Shown: one piece after another, positions 3,614-32,724 of the stretch
Layout: every line of letters starts with the position of its first letter
Numbering within the stretch: position 1 is the stretch's first letter
Virus record (IMG/VR): IMGVR_UViG_3300045741_000184
Coordinates: 1-32,724 of that record
Strand: one strand, 5' to 3'
DNA length: 32,724 nt
Source: a virus
Translations under genes and position numbers: made by a program
Notes under the pieces: generated by a model
Database searches by the model: none
What the model was told of the DNA's origin: nothing
What the model saw: the letters and a program-made list of their open reading frames with translations, nothing else

Positions 3614-5747
3614 GCCCTACGATTCTGGCATTGGCGCGCTTTAAGGCTTGCGCAGTGGAGATGCGTCCTGCCACATTCCCGCCAATCTGCTCTCCTACCC
3701 CAGCTCCTACCGCGCCCCCTATCGGTCCTCCTGTAACCATTCCTCCCAAGCCTGCCCCACCAATCGTTATCCCGCGTTGCACTAGGCTTGGGATCGTCCC
3801 ACTCTTGTTCAGGTTGTAAGCTTGGTTCGCAGCACCAGGATACTGGGTAGGACGGTGCAAGATCTTGCCTGCTTCATTGGTTGTATAAAGCCTGTGAAGT
3901 GCCTCGGGATTGTCCTTGAATACAATCCCTAAGGATTCGCTGTTGTTCTTCAGGAAGTTGTTATACCCCTTCACATTCCACTGCGTGGCAGTGCTGGTGC
4001 CAACATCATGCGCCCGCTGCGCGAAGTGAGATTGAATCTCCGCCAATGCCGCTTGTGCCTTTGGCTGTGCATCCCCAGTGGCGGCTTTCAGCGTATCGAT
4101 GATGTGGGCTAACTGAGGGGGGTCCATCGTCTCGAGTCTTTTCATCACATCATCGGATGCGACTTTGCGATTGATACCCCCAGGCCCGGAGGTATCCATA
4201 ATGTCCGAGATACCCTTGGGGTTATCTATCGTGTTCGCCCGTTCAGTGTTCAACGCCCTGGCAGACTTGTAGATATCCTGGCCTGCAGCACCGGTTACAT
4301 CCTCATCGAGCGAGTTCTTCAGTGCCTTGACGAACCCGGAATTCTGCGGCGACCAGTTTTCGTTCAGGTACTTGCGGATCGTCTCGGCCTGCTGGACTGA
4401 AGCGGTTACATTACCGTTCTCATCCACTACGCCTAGCTTCTTCAGGTACGCATTGACGGCTGGCCTAAGCGATACCCGATCCGAGTTGGTGAGCATCGAA
4501 TCGTCATTGAGCACGCCCTGGAATCCCTTAAGATCGGTTGCTTCCCCTGCGGCTCTCTTATCCGCTTCAGTATAAAGGGCTTTCAGGCGGGTATCGAAAT
4601 CATCCGATATCGCCTGCAATGCGCCAGTAACTGTATTGCCGCGCCTTGTGGCTGCGGTTTGATCCGCGCCAGTCGTGCCACCCGTGGATTCCACCGTCTG
4701 TTCGGAATACCCATGCAGGGCATCGTTTTCCTGGTTGATCGCCGTTCTAAGCACCCGTCCACCTGCGGAATCACTCAGGCTTACTTGATGATCCGTGGAC
4801 TGTGCTAGTGGATCTCCAGTAATCGCACTCTGTCGGTATCCCTCATTAAGCCCTATTTCAGATAGTACCCGGCCCCTACGTGCCTGTTCAGCGGCTGGCA
4901 GTTCGAGACTTGGCCCCTTCTCATCAGGTATGGCAAACGGATCTGCTGCCTTTGGCGCAGCGTTGGACGGCTCCCACAGCGCTCCCCGTGGCGCTCCCGT
5001 GGCGGATAGTTCCTGAGGTATAGGAGCATTAGCAGGTACCGGAACATCGCCCGGAAGCACCTGTCTGGCAGCAGGCGGGGCAGGAACGTAAGGGGCAACC
5101 TCAGGTTCCTCGGTTATCCCGCCAGCCCCTCTAGGGGCAGCCAACCCAAGCGCCAGGGGACCCGCTTCCGCCACCCCCTGCCCTAACCCCTGGGACAGCT
5201 CTGGACCGGCCCCTAGCCCGCGCGCAGCGGCGCTGACGCCCTTCCCAGCAAGCTCGAAGCCTTTGGGTACCCAGTTCAGCGGGTTGGCTGGATGTTGCAT
5301 AGCCTCTGCTGCCAGCGCACTTGTGGCACTGGCGTTGGGATTGACCTGATAGGGCTGGTGCGCTGCAACAATACGGTTCACATCCCCAGCGGCGGTGTCT
5401 AGTCCCTTGCCGGTGGCAATGTCATACAGGCCCTTCAAACCGGCACCTGCCTTGGCAGCATAGGCACCCATGCCCATGACTGGGACGGCTAGGGCAGCGC
5501 CTAATGCGGTGTCTGTGCCTATGCTTTGCTGTTCCTTGAGAATCTGCCGATCACCAGCAGCTACATTAGGATTGTAGTCTCCGACACCCTTGCGCGATTC
5601 TCCGAACTTCCTGCCATCAGGCATGGTGGGACGCGCCTGGTCCTGGGGGAATGCGGCATTGATTTCATCATCCGTAACACCCTGAACCACAGGGGCACTT
5701 GCCGCTTGGCTGCCAAAGGCCGCTTCAATCTCAGGATCAGCGGCCAA
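3600..5747 (-). CDS. Large ejection-type/internal virion protein, 715 aa
   Basis: In podoviruses a large, low-complexity protein at this position normally travels in the head and is ejected with the DNA. The N-terminus carries a short repeat (PEIEAAFG, DEINAAFP) and an Ala/Gly-rich, weakly hydrophobic stretch (about 78-120). The middle (about 285-640) is mainly helical, with Asn, Asp and Lys-rich segments. The C-terminus has a glycine-zipper region (IGGAGLGGMVTGGPIGGAVGAGVGEQIGG in part), often linked to membrane insertion. The start is TTG, because a stop lies only four codons upstream, and it overlaps the end of the preceding gene. No enzymatic domain is recognised. I assign the role by position and composition. 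Confidence 0.7.
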   Translation of the reverse strand: MAADPEIEAAFGSQAASAPVVQGVTDDEINAAFPQDQARPTMPDGRKFGESRKGVGDYNPNVAAGDRQILKEQQSIGTDTALGAALAVPVMGMGAYAAKAGAGLKGLYDIATGKGLDTAAGDVNRIVAAHQPYQVNPNASATSALAAEAMQHPANPLNWVPKGFELAGKGVSAAARGLGAGPELSQGLGQGVAEAGPLALGLAAPRGAGGITEEPEVAPYVPAPPAARQVLPGDVPVPANAPIPQELSATGAPRGALWEPSNAAPKAADPFAIPDEKGPSLELPAAEQARRGRVLSEIGLNEGYRQSAITGDPLAQSTDHQVSLSDSAGGRVLRTAINQENDALHGYSEQTVESTGGTTGADQTAATRRGNTVTGALQAISDDFDTRLKALYTEADKRAAGEATDLKGFQGVLNDDSMLTNSDRVSLRPAVNAYLKKLGVVDENGNVTASVQQAETIRKYLNENWSPQNSGFVKALKNSLDEDVTGAAGQDIYKSARALNTERANTIDNPKGISDIMDTSGPGGINRKVASDDVMKRLETMDPPQLAHIIDTLKAATGDAQPKAQAALAEIQSHFAQRAHDVGTSTATQWNVKGYNNFLKNNSESLGIVFKDNPEALHRLYTTNEAGKILHRPTQYPGAANQAYNLNKSGTIPSLVQRGITIGGAGLGGMVTGGPIGGAVGAGVGEQIGGNVAGRISTAQALKRANARIVGPTKP

Positions 5748-7101
5748 GGGAATGACTCACACCCTGCACCTGTGCCTTGAAGGCTGCTGCCTCCTGTGCA
5801 GTGGCAAAGTTCCGGCGGTAAAACTCCGTGCGCTCCTGCGGGCTCTTGAGCGCCGTGTATTCGTGCATCAAAGGATTGGTGCTTTGCACTAGCACATCAT
5901 CCGAGTGTTGAAAGCCTGTCAAATCAGGCTGCTTCGTGCGGTAAGCATTCAGGTTCTGCCCCCTCGCAAGGGACTGGCGGAAGCTGCCACGGATGTAATC
6001 CATCGCAGTGTGGATGGTGCGTTCGGCTGAAGTCTCATCCGGATACCCTGAAAGGATCGTGCCCATGCGGGCATCCGAGCCCGCATTCGCTGCCGCTAGC
6101 GTCTTAAGTTGCCCTAGATCCTTGTTGAGCAACTGCCGTGCGTAAACCACAGGTGCCAGCCCTGCCGCAGCAGCAGCGGCAGAAAGGCCCTTGGCGATCT
6201 GGCCTGAGTGGATCTGTTGAGCGAGGCTATCCACGCTCTGCGAGAGTTGAATTGCAGCAGGTGCGGTATTGGCTGCCTGGCTTACTTGGTTGGAGCGGTC
6301 TATATCGCTTCCCGCTACTCCTGTGGCTCGAGAACCTGCGGCGGTGACCGCTGCCACAAATCCTGGCATCTGCCAAGGGGCGGGCGTCTTTGTAACCTTT
6401 CCGCCTACTGGGGTTTGTTGACCTACATTCGGGCCCATCGTGGTCGTGGTGACAGGCTGTATTGCCCCGGCAAGTTCCTGCGTTCCAGGCTCCTGCATTG
6501 ATATACCACCGACTGTTGCGGCAAGTTTAGCCGCAGCATTGGAATAACCACCGCCCGGATCGCTGGACATATGCAGCATGGCGCTCTTTATGGCACGACC
6601 AAAAGCAGGGTCTTTGTTATTCGCCTCCATCTGCTCTGCCCAGTTGAGGATATCGCTCTGCGTGGCACCACCAGGCATATTAGCCAAGCCCTTTAGACCT
6701 GCGGTTATCTGAGCGTTCTGCGCCGCCGATAGCGACTGGATCGCCTGCCGTGTAGCAACCGCTTCTTTCGCATTTGAGGTCAACTGCCCAATCATTGGCT
6801 GTCCATAGGTGGGTGCTACAGCAGTTGCGCCAGTCTGGAATTTCTGCACGTCAAGCGAACCGTCTGGAAGTTGATAGTTAGGGTCTTTGACCGCATTGGC
6901 TGAAAACTGCGCTAAAGCCTGCAACTCCCGGTTCCTCTGCTGGTCCTGCCCCGCTTGCGCCTGTGCGCTCTGCTGCTGGTATTGTCCCGTCTGCAACGCC
7001 TGGCGCTGCTGCTGTATGCCAATCAATCCCGATAGCGAATTGATCGCCGTATTCGGGTTCATCGGGATGATCCCTGCGGCGACGGGTGTGGTCTCAGCCA
7101 T
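5737..7101 (-). CDS. Ejection-type internal virion protein, 454 aa
   Basis: The start is placed at the ATG at 7101 (MAETTPVAAG), with a GGGGG-rich ribosome-binding site about six bases upstream and just after the preceding stop. An in-frame start at 7131 would overlap that gene. The protein is Gln/Ala-rich near the N-terminus (QQQRQALQTGQYQQQSAQAQAGQDQQ in part). It then alternates helical and Gly/Pro-rich segments and has an Ala-rich hydrophobic stretch (GLSAAAAAAGLAPVV) at about 310-325. Composition and place between two similar proteins suggest one of the set ejected into the host with the genome. No catalytic motif is visible. Confidence 0.68.
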   Translation of the reverse strand: MAETTPVAAGIIPMNPNTAINSLSGLIGIQQQRQALQTGQYQQQSAQAQAGQDQQRNRELQALAQFSANAVKDPNYQLPDGSLDVQKFQTGATAVAPTYGQPMIGQLTSNAKEAVATRQAIQSLSAAQNAQITAGLKGLANMPGGATQSDILNWAEQMEANNKDPAFGRAIKSAMLHMSSDPGGGYSNAAAKLAATVGGISMQEPGTQELAGAIQPVTTTTMGPNVGQQTPVGGKVTKTPAPWQMPGFVAAVTAAGSRATGVAGSDIDRSNQVSQAANTAPAAIQLSQSVDSLAQQIHSGQIAKGLSAAAAAAGLAPVVYARQLLNKDLGQLKTLAAANAGSDARMGTILSGYPDETSAERTIHTAMDYIRGSFRQSLARGQNLNAYRTKQPDLTGFQHSDDVLVQSTNPLMHEYTALKSPQERTEFYRRNFATAQEAAAFKAQVQGVSHSLGR

Positions 7102-7103
7102 GT

Positions 7104-8096
7104 TTAGCCCCCGCCCGGTATAGTTGTCCAATCAGTGCCGCCGGCAAAGCCACCGCCAGCACCTGCAGTGTAAGGACCTCCTCCCCCGCCACCTCCGGCT
7201 AGTAGCCACGGGAGCGCGCTCTGTATCCCGCCACTGATGGCATTTGCAGCACCTACCGTTCCAGCTGCTTGTGCAGCTCCTGCACTTGCAACGCTCTGCC
7301 CGATGTTCCCTGCAAGCTGCGTGCCCTGGGAGCCGAGGTTAGCGGCCGCATTCTGACCAAGCTGTGCGACACCTGAAAGGCGGTTGTAGATATTGCCCTG
7401 TTGTGTCTGGTACTGGTTGAACGCGTTCTGAAATGCCGTGTTGGCATAATTCTGGTTGTAGCTCATCAACGCCTGTTGTGCCGCAGGAGCTAGGGCACTT
7501 CCAGAGGTGTTGGCTGAATTGAGAGTTCCCTGCTGGCCTTGCTGCAACTGGAAGTTGTACGCCGGGGAATACTGCTTCATCATATCGGCGCTGAAGGGCT
7601 GAAGGAGCGAGCCAAAGCTTCCGCCTCCACCTGGCCGGGGAGGTGCGCCGGGTGGCACATAACCCTGGCCACCACCCACTGCGCCCAATCGTGCCCCCGG
7701 GCCACTGGCATTGGCTCCCATCAAGCCGCCATCGGCAAATCTTGCTCCCGGTCCGCTAGCGCCAGGTCCCATAACCCCAGTAGCCCCACCGTACTGCACC
7801 GGCATACCTGTAGCACCAGGGGCTGCGGTTGCGCCTCCCTGCGTTCCATATCCGCCCTGCGGGTTGCCTATCCCTAAGAGGTAGTTCAACTGGTTCTGCG
7901 CACCATAGCCAGCCTGCATGAAGGGCTGTTCCTGGGCCGTGATGGTATTGAATTCCTGCTGGCCTATTTGGGCCGCCTGCATCTGTGCATTGGCTTGCGT
8001 TTGCGCTGCATCTGTAGCCGCACTCGCCTGCTGGCCAGCACCCAAGAGCGACATGCCACCGCCGATGATTGCACCAACACCTGCCGAAATACCCAT
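7104..8096 (-). CDS. Glycine/alanine/glutamine-rich ejection-type virion protein, 330 aa
   Basis: The N-terminus (SAGVGAIIGGGMSLLGAGQQASAA, then AAQTQANAQMQAAQIGQQEF) and the following QPFMQAGYGAQNQLNYLLG form a pattern I recognise from a widespread podovirus structural family usually annotated as DNA transfer or injection protein. An early glycine-zipper hydrophobic helix leads into a Gln/Ala helix. The centre is Gly/Pro-rich and flexible, then comes SPAYNFQLQQGQQ and an Asn/Gln-rich helix. The C-terminus is polyglycine. It is the first of three consecutive genes of this type, which probably work together across the cell envelope. Confidence 0.72.
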   Translation of the reverse strand: MGISAGVGAIIGGGMSLLGAGQQASAATDAAQTQANAQMQAAQIGQQEFNTITAQEQPFMQAGYGAQNQLNYLLGIGNPQGGYGTQGGATAAPGATGMPVQYGGATGVMGPGASGPGARFADGGLMGANASGPGARLGAVGGGQGYVPPGAPPRPGGGGSFGSLLQPFSADMMKQYSPAYNFQLQQGQQGTLNSANTSGSALAPAAQQALMSYNQNYANTAFQNAFNQYQTQQGNIYNRLSGVAQLGQNAAANLGSQGTQLAGNIGQSVASAGAAQAAGTVGAANAISGGIQSALPWLLAGGGGGGGPYTAGAGGGFAGGTDWTTIPGGG

Positions 8097-16691: not shown

Positions 16692-17471
16692 CTAAGCAAC
16701 GTGCGCCCAGACGCGTTTTGCTCTGATATTACTGATCATCTGCCTGCTGACCTTAAACTTGGCAGCGAGATCGCAACCACGTTCTTGGCTTGTACGTATT
16801 TCACGCACAATTTCAGGATTGATGCGATTGCTCTTCCCTCGTCGGTTTGCACGCGGAGGAGGATGAGCAACAACATCTACTTGCAAATGGCCCCAGGATT
16901 TACGTTGCTTTACGCTTCCAATCGTCGTAATGGCAACATTGTAATCTGAGGCAATCTGCGCATAAGGACGCGGATCAGCCAAGATCTTCAGCACCTGCGC
17001 CTCATTCAAAATGGCTCTGGTTGGTGGCTGAAAACCTTGCAAACTACATCGGCCTTTCCTGTACATATCTTTCGCATTGTCAGCTGCGTCACCCAGCCAT
17101 AAGTGCGCTGGATTGACGCAAACAACATTGTCGCATTGATGGCATACCATCATGCCAGAAGGAATGACCGAATCAGTATGATAGGCCCAAGAGAATCGGT
17201 GCGCTTTATTGTGAACAACTCCGCGCACCGCTCCCCTGAATCTCCCATACCCATCCTTATCAACACATGCGGTCCAAGTCCAACATCCATCAGGATTTGC
17301 ACCCTTAGAATGCTGGCGATTAAACCTCTCAATTGCCGTCAGCCCGTGCATCTCGGCAGACAATGCCTTTATCGCCACTGGCGAACCGTACTGCCTGGTA
17401 CGACGCCAGTGCTTATTGCACATGCCCAAATACAAGGCTTCTAAATCGCAATCCTTGATACAGCAAAGCAC
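16692..17471 (-). CDS. HNH homing endonuclease next to the split capsid gene, 259 aa
   Basis: The start is GTG at 17471 with AAGGGAG six bases upstream. The N-terminal zinc finger is CCIKDCDLEALYLGMCNKHWRR. It is followed by an HNH core (GCWTWTACVDKDGYGRFRG, NKAHRFSWAYHTDS, MVCHQCDNVVCVNPAHLWLG, DNAKDMYRKGR) and two tandem helix-turn-helix units (ILNEAQVLKILADPR ... IASDYNVAITTIGSVK; INPEIVREIRTSQE ... LAAKFKVSRQMISNIRA). Two DNA-reading units make it the largest of the endonucleases here. It sits 71 bases after capsid exon 2, so its likely target is the capsid gene end or the intron insertion site. A hairpin hides its ribosome-binding site and a terminator-like hairpin follows it. Confidence 0.92.
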   Translation of the reverse strand: MLCCIKDCDLEALYLGMCNKHWRRTRQYGSPVAIKALSAEMHGLTAIERFNRQHSKGANPDGCWTWTACVDKDGYGRFRGAVRGVVHNKAHRFSWAYHTDSVIPSGMMVCHQCDNVVCVNPAHLWLGDAADNAKDMYRKGRCSLQGFQPPTRAILNEAQVLKILADPRPYAQIASDYNVAITTIGSVKQRKSWGHLQVDVVAHPPPRANRRGKSNRINPEIVREIRTSQERGCDLAAKFKVSRQMISNIRAKRVWAHVA

Positions 17472-17542: not shown

Positions 17543-17611
17543 TCAACCCGCAATACGCAAGCCAAGACTCCGGTAAAGGCTCGCTGGTCCATACAACACA
17601 TCGGCTCTGGT
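17543..17611 (-). CDS. Major capsid protein exon 2 (22 codons)
   Basis: It begins at ACC directly after the intron's last G and ends at TGA 17545-17543. It encodes TRADVLYG, PASLYRSL and GLRIAG, continuing the exon 1 frame with no codon split. The preceding ATG belongs to the intron 3' end; it and an upstream GGAG could by chance look like the start of a 23-aa gene. The peptide makes better sense as the coat C-terminus. Confidence 0.85.
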   Translation of the reverse strand, partial: TRADVLYGPASLYRSLGLRIAG

Positions 17612-19124
17612 CATTTTGTTACTCCCCCTTTCGGGGTGGGGGAACCTCTTCGGATTCCCCTCAGCGGCTTCTGTATACCGCTGTTCAGACTATCGCATCC
17701 CCTTTCGGGGCCCTCTCACTTAGTCGTTCAGGCCGCCTTTCGGCTTGCCCCTTGTCATCCTGGGTTTCAGGATTTCCAAGTCAATCAGAGAAGGTTTTCA
17801 TCCCGTCCTAATGGACGGTATGGCCCACACTAGGCTCAGAGTCGTTGTTGATCGTGTATTGCGTCACCATGCGGATGCTCATTCCCACATCCTCATCGTC
17901 ATACGCCCTTGCGGCCATCTCCACGCCCTGCGGCAGTGGAAGATCAGCAAACGCCAGTGCATAGGCATACTTGTGGAACACCAGCCCCTGGGGGGTGACG
18001 GTTCCATTCGTTGCCGACTGGTTGAACACGATAGCAGCCGTTGGCGAGGGTGCAGCAGTCACGTTCTGGAACTGCCCACCCGAAATGACGCACTCTGCAA
18101 CCGCTAGCGAGCAATAGCCTGAGGCATCCGAGGTGTAGACCCCAGTGGCGCTATTGAACGAGCCGTTCGTGAGAGTCGCAGGCGAGAAGTACAGTCCAGT
18201 GGTTGCGGCACCGTTCGGCGGTGTACCAAATCCACCCGGCGGCAGCACAACAAACTGCTTGAGTGACCGTCCATACTGGCGGCGGTTCTGCGGGTTCACC
18301 GGATAGACACCTGCAATGGTGAAGGTATCCCCCACCGAACACACCGAGCTATTGGCCGTGAAGCCCTGCACACCAAGCACGCCAGAGGCAGCCCAACCGG
18401 TGCTTAGAAGCGCACTGGTTCCGCCCGTGGCATACAGGGTGAAACTCGAGGCTGTTCCCGTGTTAGTCCCAGTCGTGAACACATACACGTTCTGGTCTTC
18501 CCACCAGTCCAAACCGGCCCATTCCTTGGCGATCATTCCTTTGTCGTTGTACTCGCCAATCTTCGCCTGAGGGTTGAACAGGCCCTTCATGGCATCAGTC
18601 ACTGCAGACATGGTGATGGGATCAAGCACACAGCACTTCTCACCCTCCGTGGGGCAGGCTTCCATAGCCAGATAGGCCCTAGCATCGGAGAAGATCTTGT
18701 AGCTGGCCGGCTGCACGCCGGGAGTACCCAGGGTCGTAGCGGTGTTCAAGGCAAAGTAAGCGGCAGAATCGGCATCGATCCTATTGGCGACCGTGGCGAT
18801 CTGCGGCTTCAAAATGCGCTTCTTGAACATATCCATCGACAATGCCAAGTCCTGCGTCGTGAACTGCACATCAACGTGGTACTGGTAGTTAAGGACCACC
18901 GGGGTATAGGTCTCGAAGGTGTCCTCTACCAGGAGCGGTGGACCATAGGTGCCGATGTAGCGGGGCGGTCTACGGATGTTCACCGTATTTCCGACTTTCG
19001 CGCCGGTCCGAGCGAATTCGTTCGAGTATTGTCGCTCGACGCGGTTCGCTATGACCAGCTCGTTTTCCAGCACCACCAATGCTTGATTGGTGATGTAGGA
19101 CATGGTTAAGAGCTGTTGAGTCAT
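17543..19124 (-). CDS. Major capsid protein (P22 coat group), split by a group I intron
   Basis: Exon 1 is 19124-17832 (431 codons) and exon 2 is 17611-17543 (22 codons plus TGA). The spliced product is 453 aa. GGAG precedes the ATG. The sequence has coat features of the P22-type HK97 fold: YITNQALVVLENELVIANRVERQY, NTVNIRRPPRY, YHVDVQFTTQDLALSMDMF, AAYFALNTATT, an inserted beta domain (about 240-300) and AYALAFADLPLPQGVEMA near the C-terminus. Read without splicing, it ends in the odd tail SVGHTVH. Joined at CCT|ACC, it reads NNDSEP-TRADVLYG ... LGLRIAG, the (P)TR-x-DVLYG ... RPEL-type ending I recall for this coat family. The scaffold gene precedes it. Confidence 0.9.
17612..17831 (-). ncRNA. 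Group I self-splicing intron, ORF-less, about 220 nt
   Basis: Counting from the intron's first base (17831), I see these elements. P1: exon GCCU pairs with GGGC at 6-9, giving the required U-G at the 5' splice site. P2: CCGTCC/GGACGG, 14-29. P4: CTTG/CAAG. P5: ATCCTG/CAGGAT, 59-75. P6: GCC-GAAA-GGC, 88-97. P3: TCTCT/AGAGG. P7: GACTA 107-111 with TAGTC 140-144. P8: CCCC-GAAA-GGGG, 122-133. P9: AGCGG/CCGCT, 150-169. P9.1: GGGGAA/TTCCCC, 172-193. P9.2: CCCC-GAAA-GGGG, 196-207. It ends in G. The core segment CCTGAACGACTA closely resembles the phage T4 td intron. The short P7-P3 link argues against subgroup IA. Confidence 0.88.
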
Positions 19125-19151: not shown

Positions 19152-20162
19152 TTACCCCTTCCGCTTGTTCTTCTCCCGCTCATAGGCACGGAGCTGCCTG
19201 AAGTCCATCTTCGATGGATCTAGCTGGACAGTCCCCGCACCTGCTGTCGAGATCGGAGTAATCGGAGGTGGGGCAGTAGATGTACGCTCGATCCTGGGCT
19301 CAACCTTGGTCTCAACCTTCGCTTCAGCCTTGGGAGATTCCTCTTTTGACTCAAATCGCGCCTCAACCTTGCCTAATCGTGCCAGCGCCATGATGGGCGA
19401 TAGCTTCAAAATCTTGGTTAGCTCCTCACGGTTCTTGGCAAAGTAGTACGTCAGTTCACCTACCTGTTCAGACTCCATCAGGAACTGCATCACATAGGGT
19501 GGTATGTCTTTCTCATCCCGCGCCTGTACGGCTTCCTCGAAATCAGGATACTTAGCCTTAGTCACATCCAGCCTTTCCTTGACCCTGGCCTCCAAAGCAG
19601 CTCGCTCTGTTGCCTGCTGCTGCTCTCTTTGCTGCGCCTTGAACTGCTCAACCCTGTATTCAGCCTGTGCATCGGTGAACTTATCCCACTGAAACTCACC
19701 CTTGTCATTAAGGTACTTGGGATCAGATTTGTCCGGTGGCTTGATCTCAGTGACCTGCACGGGCTGGGCACGGATCTTCAGTTCCTCGACTTCCCGTGCG
19801 AGCTTGTCCCGCTCGCTTTCCACCAGGCGGCGCTGGTTGTACTGGCTTTCCGCAAGCCTTTCGTTCTCGTCTCGCTCCTCCTGGATACGCTGCCGCAAAG
19901 CCTTTTCTGCTTTCAGCTCGCGGTGCTTCTTGGCAATCTTGGCCTTTGCTTGTTCCAAGGTTTCCTCAGGCATCAAGTCGCCATCGGCTTCTACAGGAAC
20001 CTCCTTCGGTTCCTCTTTCGCTTCTACCTTGGGTTCCTGCTTGGCTTCCTCTTTAGGTGCCTCTTTGGCTTCCGCCTCCTTGATGACCGCTTTCATGTTT
20101 TCGGTCTTGCCCGATTCAATGAACTCGTTCAAGCCAGCGGAGGTAACAACCTTGGCAGTCAT
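19152..20162 (-). CDS. Capsid scaffolding protein, 336 aa
   Basis: It lies just upstream of the major capsid gene. The composition is highly charged and helical: Lys/Glu/Ala repeats at residues 25-60 (KEAEAKEAPKEEAKQEPK), a long coiled coil at about 65-135 (TLEQAKAKIAKKHRELKAEKALRQR) and a Gln/Glu-rich helix at about 168-200. A flexible Pro/Thr linker (STAPPPITPIST) leads to a short basic C-terminus (DFRQLRAYEREKNKRKG), the part that in P22 scaffold contacts coat. Scaffold guides coat assembly and leaves before DNA entry. No protease motif is visible. It starts in an ATGA overlap with the methyltransferase gene. Confidence 0.85.
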   Translation of the reverse strand: MTAKVVTSAGLNEFIESGKTENMKAVIKEAEAKEAPKEEAKQEPKVEAKEEPKEVPVEADGDLMPEETLEQAKAKIAKKHRELKAEKALRQRIQEERDENERLAESQYNQRRLVESERDKLAREVEELKIRAQPVQVTEIKPPDKSDPKYLNDKGEFQWDKFTDAQAEYRVEQFKAQQREQQQATERAALEARVKERLDVTKAKYPDFEEAVQARDEKDIPPYVMQFLMESEQVGELTYYFAKNREELTKILKLSPIMALARLGKVEARFESKEESPKAEAKVETKVEPRIERTSTAPPPITPISTAGAGTVQLDPSKMDFRQLRAYEREKNKRKG

Positions 20163-20728
20163 TTCTTCACCAGCGAGGCGATCAAATCGCCCGCCGCCTC
20201 CTTGTAGAAGGAAAGCGCAAACATCTTGCTCACATCATTGCGGTTGGCGAACTCACCGTGAATCCCCCCATAACCCCAAGTAGCATCAAAATCGCAGTTG
20301 TACCCGTCCTTGTTCCACTCAATATCGTTATCCGGCGCGTTCGTGGCACGCCAGGTCTTCGAGAGGTAGAAGTACAGCATCTCACTCACCGGGGGCCACT
20401 CATGCGTGAAATCCCCGTAAGCGCGGTTAGAGGACCACAGGGGAGTGATGATGGATGCCTTAGCGCCCATTTGCATCACCCGGTACATTTCATTGAAGAT
20501 CCACACGCGGTTCTTCCCACCGAAGTGCTCGAGGGTGTGCGACATGTGGATTTCAGCCACCGTCCCATCCTTCCACGGCCAGGGTTTAAGCAAGTCATGG
20601 ACGATATCCACGCCGGGGAACTTGTTCCTATCGACCCCAATGAAACCCTCTTTCTTGTTCTTGCCGCAACCAAGGTCCAATCTCGTTGGCTCAGTTACTT
20701 CCACAGCCTTCAACTTTGCCTTAGCCAT
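20159..20728 (-). CDS. SAM-dependent methyltransferase, 189 aa
   Basis: TRLDLGCGKNKKEGFIGVD at about residues 15-33 is a class I SAM-binding motif with the acidic residue ending beta 2. DIVHDLLKPWPWKDGTVAEIHMSHTLEHF and NEMYRVMQMGAKASIITPLW follow in the order of the type 11 group. The DFTHEWPPVSEMLYFYL and WGYGGIHGEF segments may shape the acceptor pocket. The acceptor cannot be read from sequence. Gene order (glycosyltransferase, sugar dehydratase, methyltransferase) suggests methylation of a sugar or glycan, although a DNA or protein target is not excluded. It starts immediately after the dehydratase stop. Confidence 0.8.
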   Translation of the reverse strand: MAKAKLKAVEVTEPTRLDLGCGKNKKEGFIGVDRNKFPGVDIVHDLLKPWPWKDGTVAEIHMSHTLEHFGGKNRVWIFNEMYRVMQMGAKASIITPLWSSNRAYGDFTHEWPPVSEMLYFYLSKTWRATNAPDNDIEWNKDGYNCDFDATWGYGGIHGEFANRNDVSKMFALSFYKEAAGDLIASLVKK

Positions 20729-21727
20729 TTATGCAACCATCCTTTTACCAGCCACTAGCCATTCTGGATGCTTGAGCGTCCAGTCCACTATCCTCCCGAT
20801 GCTCTGCTCTATCGCACAGGGGGGAGTCCAACCTAACTTTGCCAGCTTCTTGCCACTCAAGGCATACCGAAGATCATGCCCAGGCCGCTGGGAGTGGAAG
20901 TCCACTAATCTAAAGCGGAATGTGGTTTGCATTGCCTTGGCTATCAGCCCGGCAAGCTCCAGGTTATCCATCTCCCGCTCGCCCACGATGTTGTACTTCT
21001 CCCCAGCCTCGCCTTTGGCAAGGATGAACAGCACCGCATGAGCCACATTCTCCGCATCAATGTAAAAGCGACTGCCAGGCTTGCTGCAGGTCTTATCGGC
21101 ATGGATCGTCACCTCATCGCCCGCCAGTACCTTGGCAATGGTCATCGGTACCATCTTCTCAGGGTGCTGCCTGGTACCGATGACGTTCATCGTATGGGTG
21201 GTGATGACGGGCAGTTTATAGGTGTTGTGAAACGAAAGCCCAAGCTGCACGGCCCCCGCTTTCGTCGCGGCATACGGATTACCGGCGTTGTACCGGTCAT
21301 CCTCTGCGTAAGCGACACCTACCGGGGCAGGTCCGAAGACCTCATCTGTGCTGAAGTTGAGGAACTTCTCGCACCCCGTAAGACGGGCAAAATCAAGGAT
21401 GTTGCATGTGCCTACGACGTTATCGAGCACGAACTCCATCGGATTTTCGATGGAACGGTCCACATGCGTACCAGCCGCCAGGTGCAGTATGTAATCGTGC
21501 GCCCCGATCTGGCTGGCAAGCTGGTCATTGGTTGCGGCCCGCAGGTCGTGGTAGACAAATCTCACGCGCTTGTTCTTCGCAGCTCCAATCTCTGCCAGGC
21601 GGTTGAGGTTCCCACTGCAATCCAGACGGTCAATGATGGTAATGCGCCAATCCGTGTTCTCAAGGATCGCTTTTACAAGGTGATGGCCGATGAAACCCGC
21701 AGCACCTGTTATGAGTACCTTCACCAC
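20729..21727 (-). CDS. NDP-sugar 4,6-dehydratase-like SDR enzyme (RmlB group), 332 aa
   Basis: An extended short-chain dehydrogenase fold: TGAAGFIG (7-14, NAD binding), HLAAGTHVDRSIENP (82-96), FSTDEVFG (125-132, with the Asp-Glu pair used by 4,6-dehydratases), NPYAATKAG (Tyr152 and Lys156 of the YxxxK motif) and RFYIDAENVAHAV. RmlB-type enzymes make 4-keto-6-deoxy sugars from dTDP-glucose; the actual nucleotide sugar here is unknown. The length is typical. The start is GTG, overlapping the glycosyltransferase stop. The gene likely feeds the adjacent glycosyltransferase with an activated deoxysugar. Confidence 0.85.
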   Translation of the reverse strand: MVKVLITGAAGFIGHHLVKAILENTDWRITIIDRLDCSGNLNRLAEIGAAKNKRVRFVYHDLRAATNDQLASQIGAHDYILHLAAGTHVDRSIENPMEFVLDNVVGTCNILDFARLTGCEKFLNFSTDEVFGPAPVGVAYAEDDRYNAGNPYAATKAGAVQLGLSFHNTYKLPVITTHTMNVIGTRQHPEKMVPMTIAKVLAGDEVTIHADKTCSKPGSRFYIDAENVAHAVLFILAKGEAGEKYNIVGEREMDNLELAGLIAKAMQTTFRFRLVDFHSQRPGHDLRYALSGKKLAKLGWTPPCAIEQSIGRIVDWTLKHPEWLVAGKRMVA

Positions 21728-22461
21728 ATGTGATCCTCAGGGCCGAAGGACCCAGAAAAGTCGTAATGTCCTACTCGCACTGAGCAATCTATACCGCAGC
21801 GGTAACCGAACTTGCGGGCCTTGGACCAAAACGTCAAATCTTGCGTCCCTATCCCCTTCCCGTCCTTGCCGTTGTAGGTCTCGAACCACGGCTTTTCGAT
21901 CTGCTTGTCCTTGAAGGTCTTCATGCGCCAGAGGTTAAAGCCCATACCCGTTCCATAACATTCCACCAGTCCACCGTTGGGATCAGGCGGCACTGGGCGG
22001 TAATTTACGAGCGGGTCTTTGATATCTCCCCATATCTGCGCCACGCCTTCAGGTCCCTTGGTGTAGTACAAACCACCGATGCAGGCCATCTCAGGGTGCG
22101 CTTCCATGCGCTCGAGTAACCGGATAACACCGTCTGCAGGCGGGCAGTTATCGGCTTCAATCGTAAGCAGGTACTCCCACTGACTTAAGTCAGGGTGCGC
22201 GAGGATCTGCTCGATAGCAGTGCTGTAAGCGTCCCCCACCTCCATGCCGGTAGCGAGTATCCTGCACACTCCGTTGTTTGGCGGGAAGGCAAGGTTCATC
22301 CAGGACAGCACGACCTTGGCGGCAATGAGATCGGCAGACGGCATGACAACGACAATTCGTTGTCGTTTCCAAGAACTGCCTCTCAATAATCTAGCTGAGG
22401 TTTTTTCTAGGTCTTTGTTGTGAGCCCCCGCAAAGTCTTGCACCATCAATTGTGGCTTCAT
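21721..22461 (-). CDS. GT-A (family 2-like) glycosyltransferase, 246 aa
   Basis: Features: RIVVVMPSADLIAAKVVLSWMNL at about 35-57 (nucleotide-sugar binding fold), EYLLTIEADNCPPADGVIRLL at 96-116 with EADN in the place of the metal-binding DxD, an ACIGGLYYTKG segment, GGLVECYGTGMGFNLWRM, and GTQDLTFWSKARKFGYRCGID near the C-terminus (D-x-x-F acceptor or base region). There is no membrane segment. It probably attaches a sugar to a virion or host surface component. The start ATGAAGCCACAATTGATGG repeats, with synonymous changes, a displaced start at 22923 beyond the endonuclease VII-like gene. Confidence 0.78.
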   Translation of the reverse strand: MKPQLMVQDFAGAHNKDLEKTSARLLRGSSWKRQRIVVVMPSADLIAAKVVLSWMNLAFPPNNGVCRILATGMEVGDAYSTAIEQILAHPDLSQWEYLLTIEADNCPPADGVIRLLERMEAHPEMACIGGLYYTKGPEGVAQIWGDIKDPLVNYRPVPPDPNGGLVECYGTGMGFNLWRMKTFKDKQIEKPWFETYNGKDGKGIGTQDLTFWSKARKFGYRCGIDCSVRVGHYDFSGSFGPEDHMW

Positions 22462-22865
22462 TTTTCACCCAAGTATTTAAGAGCCGTATTTAAAAATCCC
22501 GGTTTCTCAAGATGCCCGAGTGCAACGTTGCAACCAGAGCATAGAATCCCCCGAATCATCCCAGTTCTGTGGTCGTGATCAATCTGCGGCTTCAACGCCT
22601 TTTTCTCTCTGTCAAAAGTAATTTTGCAAATAGCACATTTATTGCCCTGTGCCGAAATGAGCTTTTCAATGGTCTCGATATCCGTGCCATAAAGCCTTTT
22701 CAGGTGAGACTTAACCCACTCCCTGGGATTAGCAGCTCGCTTGGCTTTCGCATAGGCGATCTTCTCAGCCCGATGTGATGCGTAGTACTTAAGCGCATAG
22801 GCCCGCTTCTTATAGCCATTAACCGCATACCAAGCTTTGTACTTGGAAGAATCATATCCTTTCAT
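22458..22865 (-). CDS. Endonuclease VII-like (T4 gp49 type) nuclease, 135 aa
   Basis: The C-terminal half carries the recombination endonuclease VII signature: NKCAICKITF (Cys77, Cys80), PQIDHDHRTGMIRGILCSGCN (DHDH at about 97-100, Cys109, Cys112) and ALGHLE. The N-terminal half is Lys/Ala/Tyr-rich (KAWYAVNGYKKRAYALKYYASHRAEKIAYAKAKRAANPREW in part), a common DNA-binding lead. T4 gp49 resolves branched DNA, while many free-standing phage members behave as mobile endonucleases. AT-rich composition and insertion at the start of the glycosyltransferase gene support mobility. It ends in an ATGA overlap with that gene. Confidence 0.88.
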   Translation of the reverse strand: MKGYDSSKYKAWYAVNGYKKRAYALKYYASHRAEKIAYAKAKRAANPREWVKSHLKRLYGTDIETIEKLISAQGNKCAICKITFDREKKALKPQIDHDHRTGMIRGILCSGCNVALGHLEKPGFLNTALKYLGEK

Positions 22866-27766: not shown

Positions 27767-29920
27767 CTAAGGGGTTGATTTTTCCACTCGTTCGGCAGCC
27801 TTGGCCGTCTCTTTGGCCAGTTCCTTCTGGTGTGCTGCCTCGGCGTGGGTGTTCATGATCTGCGCGGCGGCTCCAATCTCGGCCACCGCTATGCTCGCCT
27901 GAGCCCTGGTGTGCGTATCGACCATCTTGGTGTGGCTCGAGACCACAGCATCGTGAGCCTTGGTATCCGTTCTCAGCTTTTCCTTTTCAAGCTCAGTTTT
28001 CATCCAACCCTGTTCAATGGAGCCTTTGTACTTCAACTCTAGCTGTGCGTGCTGCAATGCCTGCTGCAATTGAGTCACTTGCTGCTGCATGGCAGTTACG
28101 ATGTTCTTAGCCTGTTCTGGCAAGCCTTCCATGACCTTCTGCAACCCCTGGGGCGTCTGGGGCATTACCCTGTCGGCAAGCTCCTGCGCCCCCACGAAAT
28201 CAAGCGACCTTAGGAACACATCCGCACCCACTTTGGTGATCACTTCACCCACGGGTGTCTTCATAAGATCGATCATCATTTCGGCCGATTCCATCCGCCT
28301 GGTCTCATACCCAGGCCCGGTATCCATTACCACGTCATACCGTCCCACCGTCACGTCGTTCTTGATGCGGTTTACCGTAGGATCGCGTTGATTAATCGCA
28401 ACCACGCTGGGAGTTCCATCATCTCCGATGATGCGCTGCATCCTTTCCTCGGAGTAGTAATGAGGGATGAGGTCCAGCAGAAGGCGACCGGTATGGCATA
28501 TGGCTCTGGTCTGATTGTCGTAGTACTGGAAGTGCCCAATGTCGGACAGGGCAGCGCGTTCCCGTAAGGCTTTGCCACTGATGACCTCCCCTACCTTGTC
28601 CTGGCCGGGTTCATGCGGCATACCGGCGAGAGCCATTAAGTCTTTGGCTGCGGACTCTGCGGCGTTCACGAACCCGGCCGGGATCGCTACCGGCTCGACC
28701 CGCATCGGGGGAGGAAGCGGGGTCTTCGAGCCGTCTGGCTGTTCGATGAAGCCAGGATTGTATGTGAGGTGTGAGTACGGTTTCTGGTTGGCATCGTTCC
28801 ACTCAGGATGCCCGTCAAAGTGCTGTGTCGTGCCGATCCAGGGGGCAAGTGAGGATAAGGCTATGGCCTCGGTCTCCTTTGTCCTCCAGTAGTTGTACAT
28901 CCTTGCGGCGTCCATCATGTCCCGCACCATTCCGCGGCGTCTGATTTGGCCGTTCAGGTGCAGGACATTGCCCTCGCAGCGGATGACCGGTATCCACTTC
29001 CCAGGCAGTTCCGTGTGCTGCACAACGCTAGATCCGTTGAGGCGAAACCACTCAACCTGACGGCGGTATGTGGGACGGCGAATCTCACGGCCCCGTAGGT
29101 CGAGCGCAGGCGTAATTCTAGCAGCCTCGAACGCATCCCGATTGCGGTTGTAATCACTACCATACATGGAGCGTCCATCAGATAGTTTGATGAGCACGTC
29201 CTTGCGCTTGGCAATGCGGAAATACTCCGCGAGCCTGATTTCTTCCTTTGTTTCCCAGTCGGCAAGCTGATCCCCCTGTGCCCCTTCACGCCACTCGCTT
29301 TGTTCTTCCTTCGGGTACTTCCTTTGAAACTCGGAGCGTTTCATCTTCTCCGAGAGGATGCACCATTCCATATCCTCGCCCGCAGGTAACATGGCGGCAG
29401 GGTCCATGTACACGGTAAATGTGTTTGGTATCGCTAAGAGCTTCAGCTCCTGCTCGAAGCTATCCTCATCGATGTACTCTGAAAGCACCCGCCAGTAGCC
29501 CCAGCCGATCTTTACCGCGCTCTCCCCACCCGTATCGTAGGCTGTGGCCCCATCGCTACGTGTTTCGATGTGGCGTATGAGGCCGCCTATCTTTTTAGCC
29601 AGGTCCACATCCGCACCATCCCCAACAGGATGCACTTTGATCCTGGGGCGCTGCTGGCGCATGTTGTTCACCACGCGCTTGACCATCGTGCGGGTGTGGT
29701 TGATCGTCAAGGTGGGACGGCGCATGACCTTACGCATGTTGTACAGGTCATCAGGCCATTGGTTCCCATCTTCAAATTCCAAATCCGCCACGGCCCTGAT
29801 TCTGTTTTCACTTTCGGCCTGTTGACAGATCCTTAGGCGTTCGGCTGCTTCTGCGAAGATAGCTGCAAAATCATCAGACGCCGCCGGCTGATCATTAGTA
29901 CGCTCAGGACTCACAGGCAT
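27767..29920 (-). CDS. Portal protein, P22 gp1-like, 717 aa
   Basis: The length (P22 portal is 725 aa), the position directly after the terminase, and conserved segments support this: EDGNQWPDDLYNMRKVMRRPTLTINHTRTMVKRVVNNMRQQRPRIKV near residues 50-98, GWGYWRVLSEYIDEDSFEQEL, NTFTVYMDPAAM, EVISGKALRERAALSD, and a C-terminal coiled-coil tail (about 620-717, MQQQVTQLQQALQHAQLELKYKG), the barrel region of P22-type portals. Twelve copies form the DNA entry ring. Its ATG overlaps the end of the HNH gene, and only a weak ribosome-binding site is visible. Confidence 0.92.
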   Translation of the reverse strand: MPVSPERTNDQPAASDDFAAIFAEAAERLRICQQAESENRIRAVADLEFEDGNQWPDDLYNMRKVMRRPTLTINHTRTMVKRVVNNMRQQRPRIKVHPVGDGADVDLAKKIGGLIRHIETRSDGATAYDTGGESAVKIGWGYWRVLSEYIDEDSFEQELKLLAIPNTFTVYMDPAAMLPAGEDMEWCILSEKMKRSEFQRKYPKEEQSEWREGAQGDQLADWETKEEIRLAEYFRIAKRKDVLIKLSDGRSMYGSDYNRNRDAFEAARITPALDLRGREIRRPTYRRQVEWFRLNGSSVVQHTELPGKWIPVIRCEGNVLHLNGQIRRRGMVRDMMDAARMYNYWRTKETEAIALSSLAPWIGTTQHFDGHPEWNDANQKPYSHLTYNPGFIEQPDGSKTPLPPPMRVEPVAIPAGFVNAAESAAKDLMALAGMPHEPGQDKVGEVISGKALRERAALSDIGHFQYYDNQTRAICHTGRLLLDLIPHYYSEERMQRIIGDDGTPSVVAINQRDPTVNRIKNDVTVGRYDVVMDTGPGYETRRMESAEMMIDLMKTPVGEVITKVGADVFLRSLDFVGAQELADRVMPQTPQGLQKVMEGLPEQAKNIVTAMQQQVTQLQQALQHAQLELKYKGSIEQGWMKTELEKEKLRTDTKAHDAVVSSHTKMVDTHTRAQASIAVAEIGAAAQIMNTHAEAAHQKELAKETAKAAERVEKSTP

Positions 29921-30321
29921 AATCGTGCTCTGTATTTCTTCGCTGCCTCAGTATTGCAGGCACGACACCGCTTCAGTCCATTCGGAGCAATATAGGTGTT
30001 ATCAGCCACAGGGTGTCCTTTACGGCAGAACTCGCGGACAGGATAGACAGCACGTCTGTGATTTTCGTCTGGAGTGACTTGCTCTAAATGCGCCGGATTA
30101 ACGCATATCCGGTTTCTGCAGAGATGATCAAGCTGCATCCCGGTAGCTATCGGGCCAACTAAAGCCTCATACACGACACGATGAGCGCGATACCCACGAT
30201 TGCCAACAGAAGCGCGACCATATCCATCTTGATCGGTGCTGGCAATCCAGATCCAGCACGTATCAGTCTTACGTATATACCTGTTCATCAAACGTTCGGC
30301 TGTGTTCTTAGGTCGCCCCAC
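29911..30321 (-). CDS. HNH homing endonuclease between terminase and portal, 136 aa
   Basis: The core motifs are TCWIWIASTDQDGYGRASV, RAHRVVYEALVG, MQLDHLCRNRICVNPAHLEQVTPDEN and a C-terminal zinc ribbon (CRKGHPVADNTYIAPNGLKRCRACN). Start choice: GTG at 30321 has GGAG seven bases upstream and lies just past the terminase stop. The longer frame from an ATG at 30354 would overlap terminase. The gene is free-standing, and its last bases overlap the portal ATG. The terminase C-terminus and portal N-terminus both look intact, so it sits in an intergenic slot rather than breaking a gene. Confidence 0.9.
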   Translation of the reverse strand: MGRPKNTAERLMNRYIRKTDTCWIWIASTDQDGYGRASVGNRGYRAHRVVYEALVGPIATGMQLDHLCRNRICVNPAHLEQVTPDENHRRAVYPVREFCRKGHPVADNTYIAPNGLKRCRACNTEAAKKYRARLCL

Positions 30322-30322
30322 T

Positions 30323-31801
30323 CTATGACTCCATCCAAGACAACCCGTCCCCATTAGCTCGCTGGTTCATTGGCACCGACACCTTGGCAGTCTTTGGCAT
30401 CTCTGGTGCCCTTGCGTGTTCTAAACCTCTCCCAATCAATGAGCAAACGTCTACTCCATCATCAAATTTCGCAGCTGGGAAGCGCATCAACTGACTCATC
30501 AAGTCCGGCAGCCATGGACTTGTAGAAGGTAGGAATACATTGCCCATTGCACAGCGGGCCTGGAAAGGACGAGCGCGGACCACTTTGTCCACAATACTGG
30601 CAAGCCATTCGAGCCGGCACGGCACCCGTCGCTCTTGCATACGCTTCTTCAAAAATGGCTCGATGGCTTTTCGTATCGGTCCTGATTCCCCAAACCATAT
30701 CAAGGGGGAATACTGGGCGATCAGGTCGCATTGCTTCTCGATCCAAACGTTACTAGCAGCTTGCCCCCGCCACCAATCCACAAGGTACAGGTCTCCGTTG
30801 TAGTCCAAGCCAAAGATACCGTGCTCAGTGTAATCTCCTCCGCCTTCAGTAACCGCATAATCGCTGGCTCCGTAGTAGTGCATGTTCTGCGGGGCTGTAC
30901 GGTACTCGTTGAACCACTCGCGCTTGAAGTAATCGCCCTCGTCTGGCGCTGGATCTTGTTGGTATAGCGCGTTCCAAGCCCTGTTATCCATCTTTGCAGT
31001 CTGCACCATTTCATCCGTGAACCACTCCGGCCACAAGCGTTCGCCTGGCTGGCGGCCTACAGGATCGGGCGCAATCGCCTCCATTGGCAATTTCAGTACC
31101 GTCCATCTGTTTGATTCCCTCTCGATCAGCCTGCCCGACAGATCCGCTTCCGCCCACCTGGTCTGTATCAGCACTTGCCGTGCTTTCGGCAACAGGCGTG
31201 GATAGAAGTCGTTCCTGTACCAGTCCCATTGCTTGTCGAGGTTGCGCGGGTTATCGGCATCCTCGCGCCCCTTCACTGGATCATCAATCTGCCCAAGCAA
31301 CGCCCTACGGCCCGATATGGTCGAGCCCGTGCCGGCAGCAAAGAATGCCCCGCCGCGCTCATTCTCCCAGAAGCCTGCAGCCCTGGAGTCTTCGGAACAC
31401 CCAAAATCAAATACATTCCGAAACTGCGGGCTGGATACTATGTTCCTGGCCCTACGGCTGAAATACTCAGCCAATTCCGTCGTATTTGAAACGCCCACGA
31501 TAGAGGCGTCCGGGTGACGGCCCATAAACCACGGCGGGAATAGCACGCTCGCGTATGTACTCTTGGCCGATCCTGGCGGCATCCAGATCATCAGCCTGTC
31601 AATATCGCCCCGATCCAGCGCCTCGAGGTATTCGATCAGCAACAGGTGATGCTTGGCCGGGACGATTCCAATATCAAGAATCGAGATGAACTTTGCCAGG
31701 CTGTGCTGCGCTTCCTGAAACTCCAGCTCCCGCTCGAGCAGCAACTCTTCGCGCTCTAAGGTCGGCAAGCTCGGCTCTGATTTCATCGCGACTAAGCTCA
31801 T
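30323..31801 (-). CDS. terL: Terminase large subunit, 492 aa
   Basis: The ATPase domain has the Walker A variant PPGSAKST at 75-82 and a Walker B-like ALLGQIDDP at about 167-175, with the TGSTISGRRA loop before it. The C-terminal RNase H-like nuclease has YYGASDYAVTEGGGDYTE (first Asp), LIWFGESGPIRKAIEPFL and FDDGVDVCSLIG (last Asp). It packages DNA into the prohead through the portal. The length is normal for this terminase group. The start lies 128 bases inside the end of the small-subunit gene. A second in-frame ATG (31786) is also possible. Confidence 0.95.
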   Translation of the reverse strand: MSLVAMKSEPSLPTLEREELLLERELEFQEAQHSLAKFISILDIGIVPAKHHLLLIEYLEALDRGDIDRLMIWMPPGSAKSTYASVLFPPWFMGRHPDASIVGVSNTTELAEYFSRRARNIVSSPQFRNVFDFGCSEDSRAAGFWENERGGAFFAAGTGSTISGRRALLGQIDDPVKGREDADNPRNLDKQWDWYRNDFYPRLLPKARQVLIQTRWAEADLSGRLIERESNRWTVLKLPMEAIAPDPVGRQPGERLWPEWFTDEMVQTAKMDNRAWNALYQQDPAPDEGDYFKREWFNEYRTAPQNMHYYGASDYAVTEGGGDYTEHGIFGLDYNGDLYLVDWWRGQAASNVWIEKQCDLIAQYSPLIWFGESGPIRKAIEPFLKKRMQERRVPCRLEWLASIVDKVVRARPFQARCAMGNVFLPSTSPWLPDLMSQLMRFPAAKFDDGVDVCSLIGRGLEHARAPEMPKTAKVSVPMNQRANGDGLSWMES

Positions 31802-32057
31802 TCACATCCCGTCGATCTCTGTTGGTGTGTTCAATCGCTTTCAGATCAGGCAACGCCTTGTTGAGCAGCTTCATGTACACGTCTGCCTTCAGGCGGTACG
31901 CGGCTACCTCAGTGGGATCAGTGAGCGTGTGGGCCTTACCCGCAATGCTCTCCAGCAACCGCAGATATGCCATCGCCCTAAGGCGTTCACGCAGTTCCTC
32001 TTGCCTTACCGCTCTACGCCGGTACGCATCATTTGTTTTTGCACCGAAATCAGCCAT
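31674..32057 (-). CDS. terS: Terminase small subunit, 127 aa
   Basis: Position just before the large subunit plus a helical, highly charged sequence support this call: NDAYRRRAVRQEELRERLRAMAYLRLLESIAGKAHTL, then AAYRLKADVYMKLLNKALPDLKAIEHT and a basic C-terminal tail (LADLRARRVAARAGAG). The small subunit recognises the packaging site and controls the motor. The ATG at 32057 overlaps the end of the HNH gene by eight bases and is preferred over an in-frame TTG at 32081. The basic tail is encoded within the 128-base overlap with the large subunit. Confidence 0.82.
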   Translation of the reverse strand: MADFGAKTNDAYRRRAVRQEELRERLRAMAYLRLLESIAGKAHTLTDPTEVAAYRLKADVYMKLLNKALPDLKAIEHTNRDRRDVNELSRDEIRAELADLRARRVAARAGAGVSGSAAQPGKVHLDS

Positions 32058-32592
32058 TTGCAATTCTAGCCCTGTCTGCAACCGCAGCGCACCATTTGGT
32101 GAACTCCGTCTGTGTCATATCCAGTTTCATCAGGTTAACTATGGTGCATACCAGTTGGATGTTATCCAGGGAGTAGCCCTTACTGCTATCGATGCGGTCA
32201 ATGGATACGTTGGTGCGCTTCCTGCCTTCCCTGATCCCCGTAGTCATTGGGATCAGCGTAATCGCACATAGTCCTCCTTGCGCCTCGTAAAGTGCAAGAA
32301 GATCCTCTATTTTCATGTACTTGTGGCGGGATCGGTGCTTGAGCAAGTGCGCCAAGAATCCGCGTAGATCCATCTTCTGCCCCTGTATGCGACAGGAAGA
32401 TCCACAATATTTGGCTTTACGCTTAGTTTCGAACGGTTTATCGCAGACTACGCAGGTCCCAAAGAATGGCTTGTGATAGCCCGGCTGTCTGGATCGTTCA
32501 TCCCTGCAGCGCATGGAACAGAATCGGTGTCGGCCGTATGTCCTGGGCCCATCGCAAACCTCACAGGTGCCGATGACTGGGAGCTGTTCCAT
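32050..32592 (-). CDS. HNH endonuclease with two zinc-ribbon motifs, 180 aa
   Basis: Two treble-clef-like cysteine units precede the nuclease: TCEVCDGPRTYGRHRFCSMRCRDE and TCVVCDKPFETKRKAKYCGSSCR. The HNH core follows (GGLCAITLIPMTTG, VSIDRIDSSKGYSLDNIQLVC, VNLMK). The ATG at 32592 shares a TGATG with the stop of the gene upstream, so translation is coupled. An in-frame GTG at 32613 would overlap that gene. It lies directly in front of the small terminase. HNH proteins next to terminase genes can also assist cos cleavage, so a packaging role is an alternative to simple homing. Confidence 0.88.
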   Translation of the reverse strand: MEQLPVIGTCEVCDGPRTYGRHRFCSMRCRDERSRQPGYHKPFFGTCVVCDKPFETKRKAKYCGSSCRIQGQKMDLRGFLAHLLKHRSRHKYMKIEDLLALYEAQGGLCAITLIPMTTGIREGRKRTNVSIDRIDSSKGYSLDNIQLVCTIVNLMKLDMTQTEFTKWCAAVADRARIANG

Positions 32593-32724
32593 CAGGGCCT
32601 GCCATTGGGCCACCTGTCAAATAGCGGCTGGTAGCTGTCCTCTGAGGTATCAGGGGTACGGATGTTCTCCAGGATGGTTGTGCGGGTGTTGAGGTTTTGC
32701 ATGGCTTCGTGCAAGGCGTGGAGT
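32592..32724 (-). CDS. C-terminal part of an unidentified gene (5' truncated by window edge)
   Basis: The minus-strand frame enters from the right edge, reads ...LHALHEAMQNLNTRTTILENI, then RTPDTSEDSYQPLFDRWPNGRP, and stops at a TGA that overlaps the HNH ATG (TGATG). The helical start and ordered C-terminus, with tight coupling, suggest a real gene. It is too short to identify. Confidence 0.55.
   Translation of the reverse strand, partial: LHALHEAMQNLNTRTTILENIRTPDTSEDSYQPLFDRWPNGRP

Follow-up and report, generated by a model that had tools for sequence, protein, structure and literature searches.

How a coat gene whose reading frame ends in an implausible tail can still encode a complete major capsid protein is the question raised by the IMG/VR virus record IMGVR_UViG_3300045741_000184, a stretch of 32,724 nucleotides (nt) hereafter called the window (coordinates are 1-based on the shown strand). 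Its minus strand carries terminase, P22-type portal, scaffold and coat genes, and the uninterrupted coat frame (19124-17808, minus) gives 438 amino acids (aa) with the C-terminus SVGHTVH, while a short frame reading TRADVLYG...LGLRIAG to its stop lies at 17611-17543 (minus), 220 nt beyond the end of what we call exon 1. A first-pass annotation had distrusted the tail, had placed its stop in the loop of a hairpin, and had proposed that the short frame continues the coat at CCT|ACC across a group I intron without an open reading frame (ORF-less), whose 22-codon second exon a gene caller would miss; each of these points is upheld below. We regard it as very probable, at about 0.94, that the insertion is an ORF-less group I intron located after codon 431 of a P22-type major coat gene, predicted to self-splice to give a coat protein of 453 aa, and present as a mobile passenger.

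The empty site is directly visible, since in about 75 IMG/VR homologues without the insertion the sequence ...INNDSEP-TRADVLYGPASLYRSLGLRIAG runs unbroken; the only exception among the homologues covering the 3′ end is L079, which has an intron of its own 10 nt further on. The joined window sequence, aligned with L001-L003, likewise reveals a clean insertion, and, as the empty sites indicate, removal of the intron restores both an uninterrupted coat gene and the standard C-terminus. Exon 1 (17832..19124, minus; 431 codons) is recognized as P22-type major coat by Pfam P22_CoatProtein, by the PHROG major head protein and by its homologues, and exon 2 (17543..17611, minus; 22 codons, TRADVLYGPASLYRSLGLRIAG, and a stop) by the joined translation and by homologues in which the matching residues are largely invariant. 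Joining at CCT|ACC produces a 453-aa protein that scores 100 bits with the Pfam coat model, 11 bits above the unspliced frame, and the profile of the coat homologues matches 7sp4 and 5l35, that is, the P22 gene 5 protein family, in agreement with the P22-type coat first proposed. The predicted structure of L001, an intact homologue (mean pLDDT 47 and 42), was not used to place the exon-2 residues.

The intron itself (17612..17831, minus; 220 nt) is delimited by the empty site and supported by a covariance model and by covariation, and all its elements were found, namely P1 with its U-G, P3, P4, P5, P6, P7, P8, P9, P9.1, P9.2 and the last G. P1 (17823..17835, minus) pairs the exon GCCU with the intron GGGC and leaves a U-G at the 5′ splice site, according to the sequence, the fold and a test of pairing with its own site; the P2 hairpin region (17789..17822, minus), placed by sequence and fold, holds in its loop the in-frame TAG that ends the unspliced frame; and the catalytic core from P3 to P9.1 (17630..17798, minus), with P7 strands GACTA/TAGTC, follows from the family alignment, its covariation and the model. 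Exon 1 ends in U and the intron in G (...CAAAATG|ACC), no endonuclease frame is found within the 220 nt, and the fold energy of the intron RNA lies 5.8 standard deviations below that of shuffles (z -5.8). All the structural claims made at first sight (P1 with U-G, P7, the P9 series, the terminal G) hold; the likeness to the core of the T4 td intron was loose, a short shared motif only. The mark of td-type (IA) group I introns is P7.1/P7.2 between P7 and P3′. Here the alignment leaves 3 nt between P7 and P3′, with no space for these elements, so that an assignment to subgroup IA does not apply.

The consensus came from an alignment of 54 introns, with P3, P4, P5, P6, P8, P9 and P9.1, to which P7 was added afterwards. 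A first covariance model, R1, included the window intron; R2 was rebuilt from 30 related introns without it, and finds the window intron with 163 bits (E 1.5e-39), a result that is not circular. Throughout the family, P7 included, pairing is kept in 97.1% of the cells, against 39-45% when the partners are slid, and in 26 of the 42 pairs both partners show changes; P3, P5, P6, P8 and P9 covary, and P4 and P7 are always paired, nearly or fully invariant. The assignment to group I thus follows from (i) the empty site in the homologues, (ii) the match to a model built without the window, and (iii) covariation across the family. The tie of this family to known group I introns is given by two matches: the coat intron of L079 (269 nt), recognized by the Rfam group I model RF00028 with 70 bits and by R1 with 23.9 bits, and, in 31 kb of T4, the sole R1 match, weak (E 0.037), inside the span of the split nrdD, which is annotated with a group I intron.

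Several points weigh against this reading. The splicing of the window intron is predicted here from the comparison of DNA; P7 is invariant across the family, so that covariation cannot test it; RF00028 matched nothing in either the whole window or the intron segment; and the link with the free-standing HNH endonuclease gene that lies directly downstream of the coat (16692..17471, minus) is weak, as introns near such genes differ in their sites, and in L012 the HNH gene is present and an intron absent. The first-pass annotation had counted on an Rfam match and had taken its lack as telling against an intron, an expectation that failed. However, Rfam reported none of the tested members of the family, and RF00028 overlooks the family as a whole, a match to that model being a test of detection and not a defining property of group I introns. 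The weak Rfam hits on the window, mir-244, mir-29 and others, are due to chance.

The reliance on prediction and the silence of Rfam would also suit an intron that had decayed and no longer spliced, in which case the phage would make the 438-aa coat or the record would represent a dead variant. We consider this improbable, because the window intron keeps every core position that is invariant in the family and scores within the family range, and because the C-terminal residues that would be lost are largely invariant in the homologues. Very improbable, in turn, is that splicing of the coat acts as a regulatory switch coupling virion assembly to the state of the cell, as the proposal of splicing control over assembly would have it: in its favour, the coat belongs to the late structural genes, and in T4 the splicing of introns relies on translation, as reported in work cited by PMC3984707; against it, the nearest relatives lack the intron, which is hence dispensable, as do most homologues, and its sites vary from phage to phage as expected of a mobile element. 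The proposal finds no support. An assembly artefact or chimera can practically be set aside, for, although this is a metagenomic contig and a second copy of the exact junction was not found, both ends of the insertion coincide precisely with a splice-competent P1 and a terminal G, its flanks read as a single gene in frame, and the arrangement recurs at some 17 positions in other contigs and in the deposited phage MW202674.

If the insertion is a self-splicing intron, the chemistry of its family would suggest the following course: the transcript would fold, guanosine would attack just behind the U that P1 holds at the end of exon 1, and joining of the two exons would then give the message for the 453-aa protein. 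Ribosomes entering from exon 1 would halt 22-24 nt past the 5′ splice site, at the TAG of the P2 loop, and would in this way not unfold the core. Continued into the introns of coat genes, the coat frame meets a stop before P3 in 30/30 cases, against 43/60 for the other frames (p 0.0004, although the true weight is lower because the introns are related). As a mobile passenger, the intron was probably acquired by recombination, along with exon 2 and possibly also the adjacent HNH gene.

The window intron belongs to a larger family. A search of phage sequences with it (BLAST) returned partial relatives, among them MW202674, where the match lies between split coat frames, and Roseobacter phage CRP-118; DNA patterns derived from the core were then scanned over viral contigs, the counts of the second scan being lower bounds. 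In the fetched contigs, some of which overlap, R1 gives at least 182 matches in 139 loci. With the exons placed by a coat profile, the best joins give back an intact coat sequence for 35 introns, whose 5′ exon ends fall at 17 distinct positions; these include a less certain site near residue 206 in L120 and that of the L079 intron, which Rfam does detect. The statistics do not cover the introns for which the automatic splice sites failed, a subset close to codons 49-51 (among them those of L097, L105, L122, L130, L141, L156, L200 and L209) and that of L190. Three introns of the family occur in single coat genes of L087, L120, L215, L220 and L223. Intron-bearing coat genes are a minority; in the second coat clade they number 6/80, a figure obtained with a query that disfavours genes with interruptions. 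In all 21 distinct coat introns the guide and its own exon form at least four pairs, with U-G as the closing one, as against 34% of mismatched exon-intron combinations. It seems reasonably likely from these data that environmental podoviruses have in their P22-type coat genes a hotspot for a large, unannotated family of ORF-less group I introns of about 200-280 nt undetected by Rfam, with guides fitted to some 17 positions and up to three introns per gene, and that new sites would be reached via transposition and not by homing alone.

Further occurrences of the family were noted: L134 has five matches of the intron model in a stretch of about 1.8 kb (5488-7281), in the cultured Roseobacter phage CRP-118 (L083, 1501-1645) one intron lies between two frames annotated as ribonucleotide reductase fragments, and others turn up in contigs that binning assigns to Lachnospiraceae and Burkholderiales genomes (L304 2309-2478 and L305 2191-2356).

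Introns in capsid genes are already known, and what is of interest here is the family itself, which escapes Rfam, and how many sites it occupies in a single gene. Mycobacteriophage LittleE has an intron in its major capsid gene whose splicing was demonstrated by reverse transcription PCR (RT-PCR), and another capsid-gene intron is cited for Tuc2009 in that paper (PMC3706429). The LittleE intron resembles that of the window in its U/G borders and in having been found against intron-free relatives, and differs in its capsid family, in its 819 bp with a putative endonuclease frame, and in the RT-PCR evidence, where ours comes from DNA; the tail-gene intron of BAKA is closer in being ORF-less (265 nt), with the same borders and the same mode of discovery, and its splicing too was seen by RT-PCR (PMC3706429). 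The podovirus MW202674 (Manatee Spring; L082, 2686-4201) carries an intron of the same family (170.7 bits) inside a P22-type coat gene, although after codon ~90, and there the intron went unrecognized, so that the annotation splits the gene into two coat genes plus one hypothetical protein. The L079 intron shares with ours the gene, the P1 U-G, the terminal G and P7 GACTA/TAGTC, and differs in its length and in being visible to Rfam, whereas members of the family to which the window intron belongs are shorter and go unseen by Rfam. In Bastillevirinae several introns may interrupt one phage gene, and known models are incomplete for phage introns; those introns, in contrast, were detected by means of the Rfam and GISSD models, and many of them come with endonuclease genes (PMC11878797). 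A literature search, mostly without subscription papers, turned up neither an intron reported from a P22-type coat gene nor any earlier account of the family described here.

Gene callers give such phages a wrong coat C-terminus and miss the intron. Since the standard group I model passes over a family of which the fetched contigs yield at least 182 matches, surveys based on that model have probably undercounted phage introns. Each virion requires hundreds of copies of the coat protein, and the presence of several introns in its gene raises the question of what splicing efficiency is required; the spread of ORF-less introns to so many sites raises that of the route they followed.

With regard to this route, neighbouring endonucleases have been discussed in terms of collaborative homing (PMC10448857). 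The nearest relative, L001, has neither the coat intron nor, at the same place, the HNH gene, which could possibly be a partner in homing of the window intron. An HNH gene also follows the coat in L012, L059/L061 and L079, and more distantly in L014; coat introns are present in 3/5 cases with such a gene against 2/59 of the others (p 0.002), with different sites and lineages. Compared with L001, the DNA of exon 2 is 62% identical and the last 66 nt of exon 1 92%, a drop found in 1/141 comparable pairs (L003 was ignored in this comparison, having a frame shift inside its coat gene), which suggests that the intron and exon 2 arrived together by recombination. In the intron tree the window intron is closest to that of L111, with 85% identity; a movement within the gene from the L011 site was considered and dropped, as the tree puts the L011 intron in another clade.

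Other nucleases were observed alongside. In L013 and L078 (2387-2926) an HNH/endonuclease VII-like frame lies in an insertion of about 690 nt at coat codon ~33, where neither Rfam nor R1 detected an intron. The window holds three more free-standing HNH or endonuclease VII-type genes (29911-30354, 22458-22865 and 32050-32613, minus), which makes this phage rich in such nucleases. Lastly, between the portal and the scaffold (20159-22461, minus) it carries nucleotide-sugar epimerase, methyltransferase-like and glycosyltransferase-like genes.
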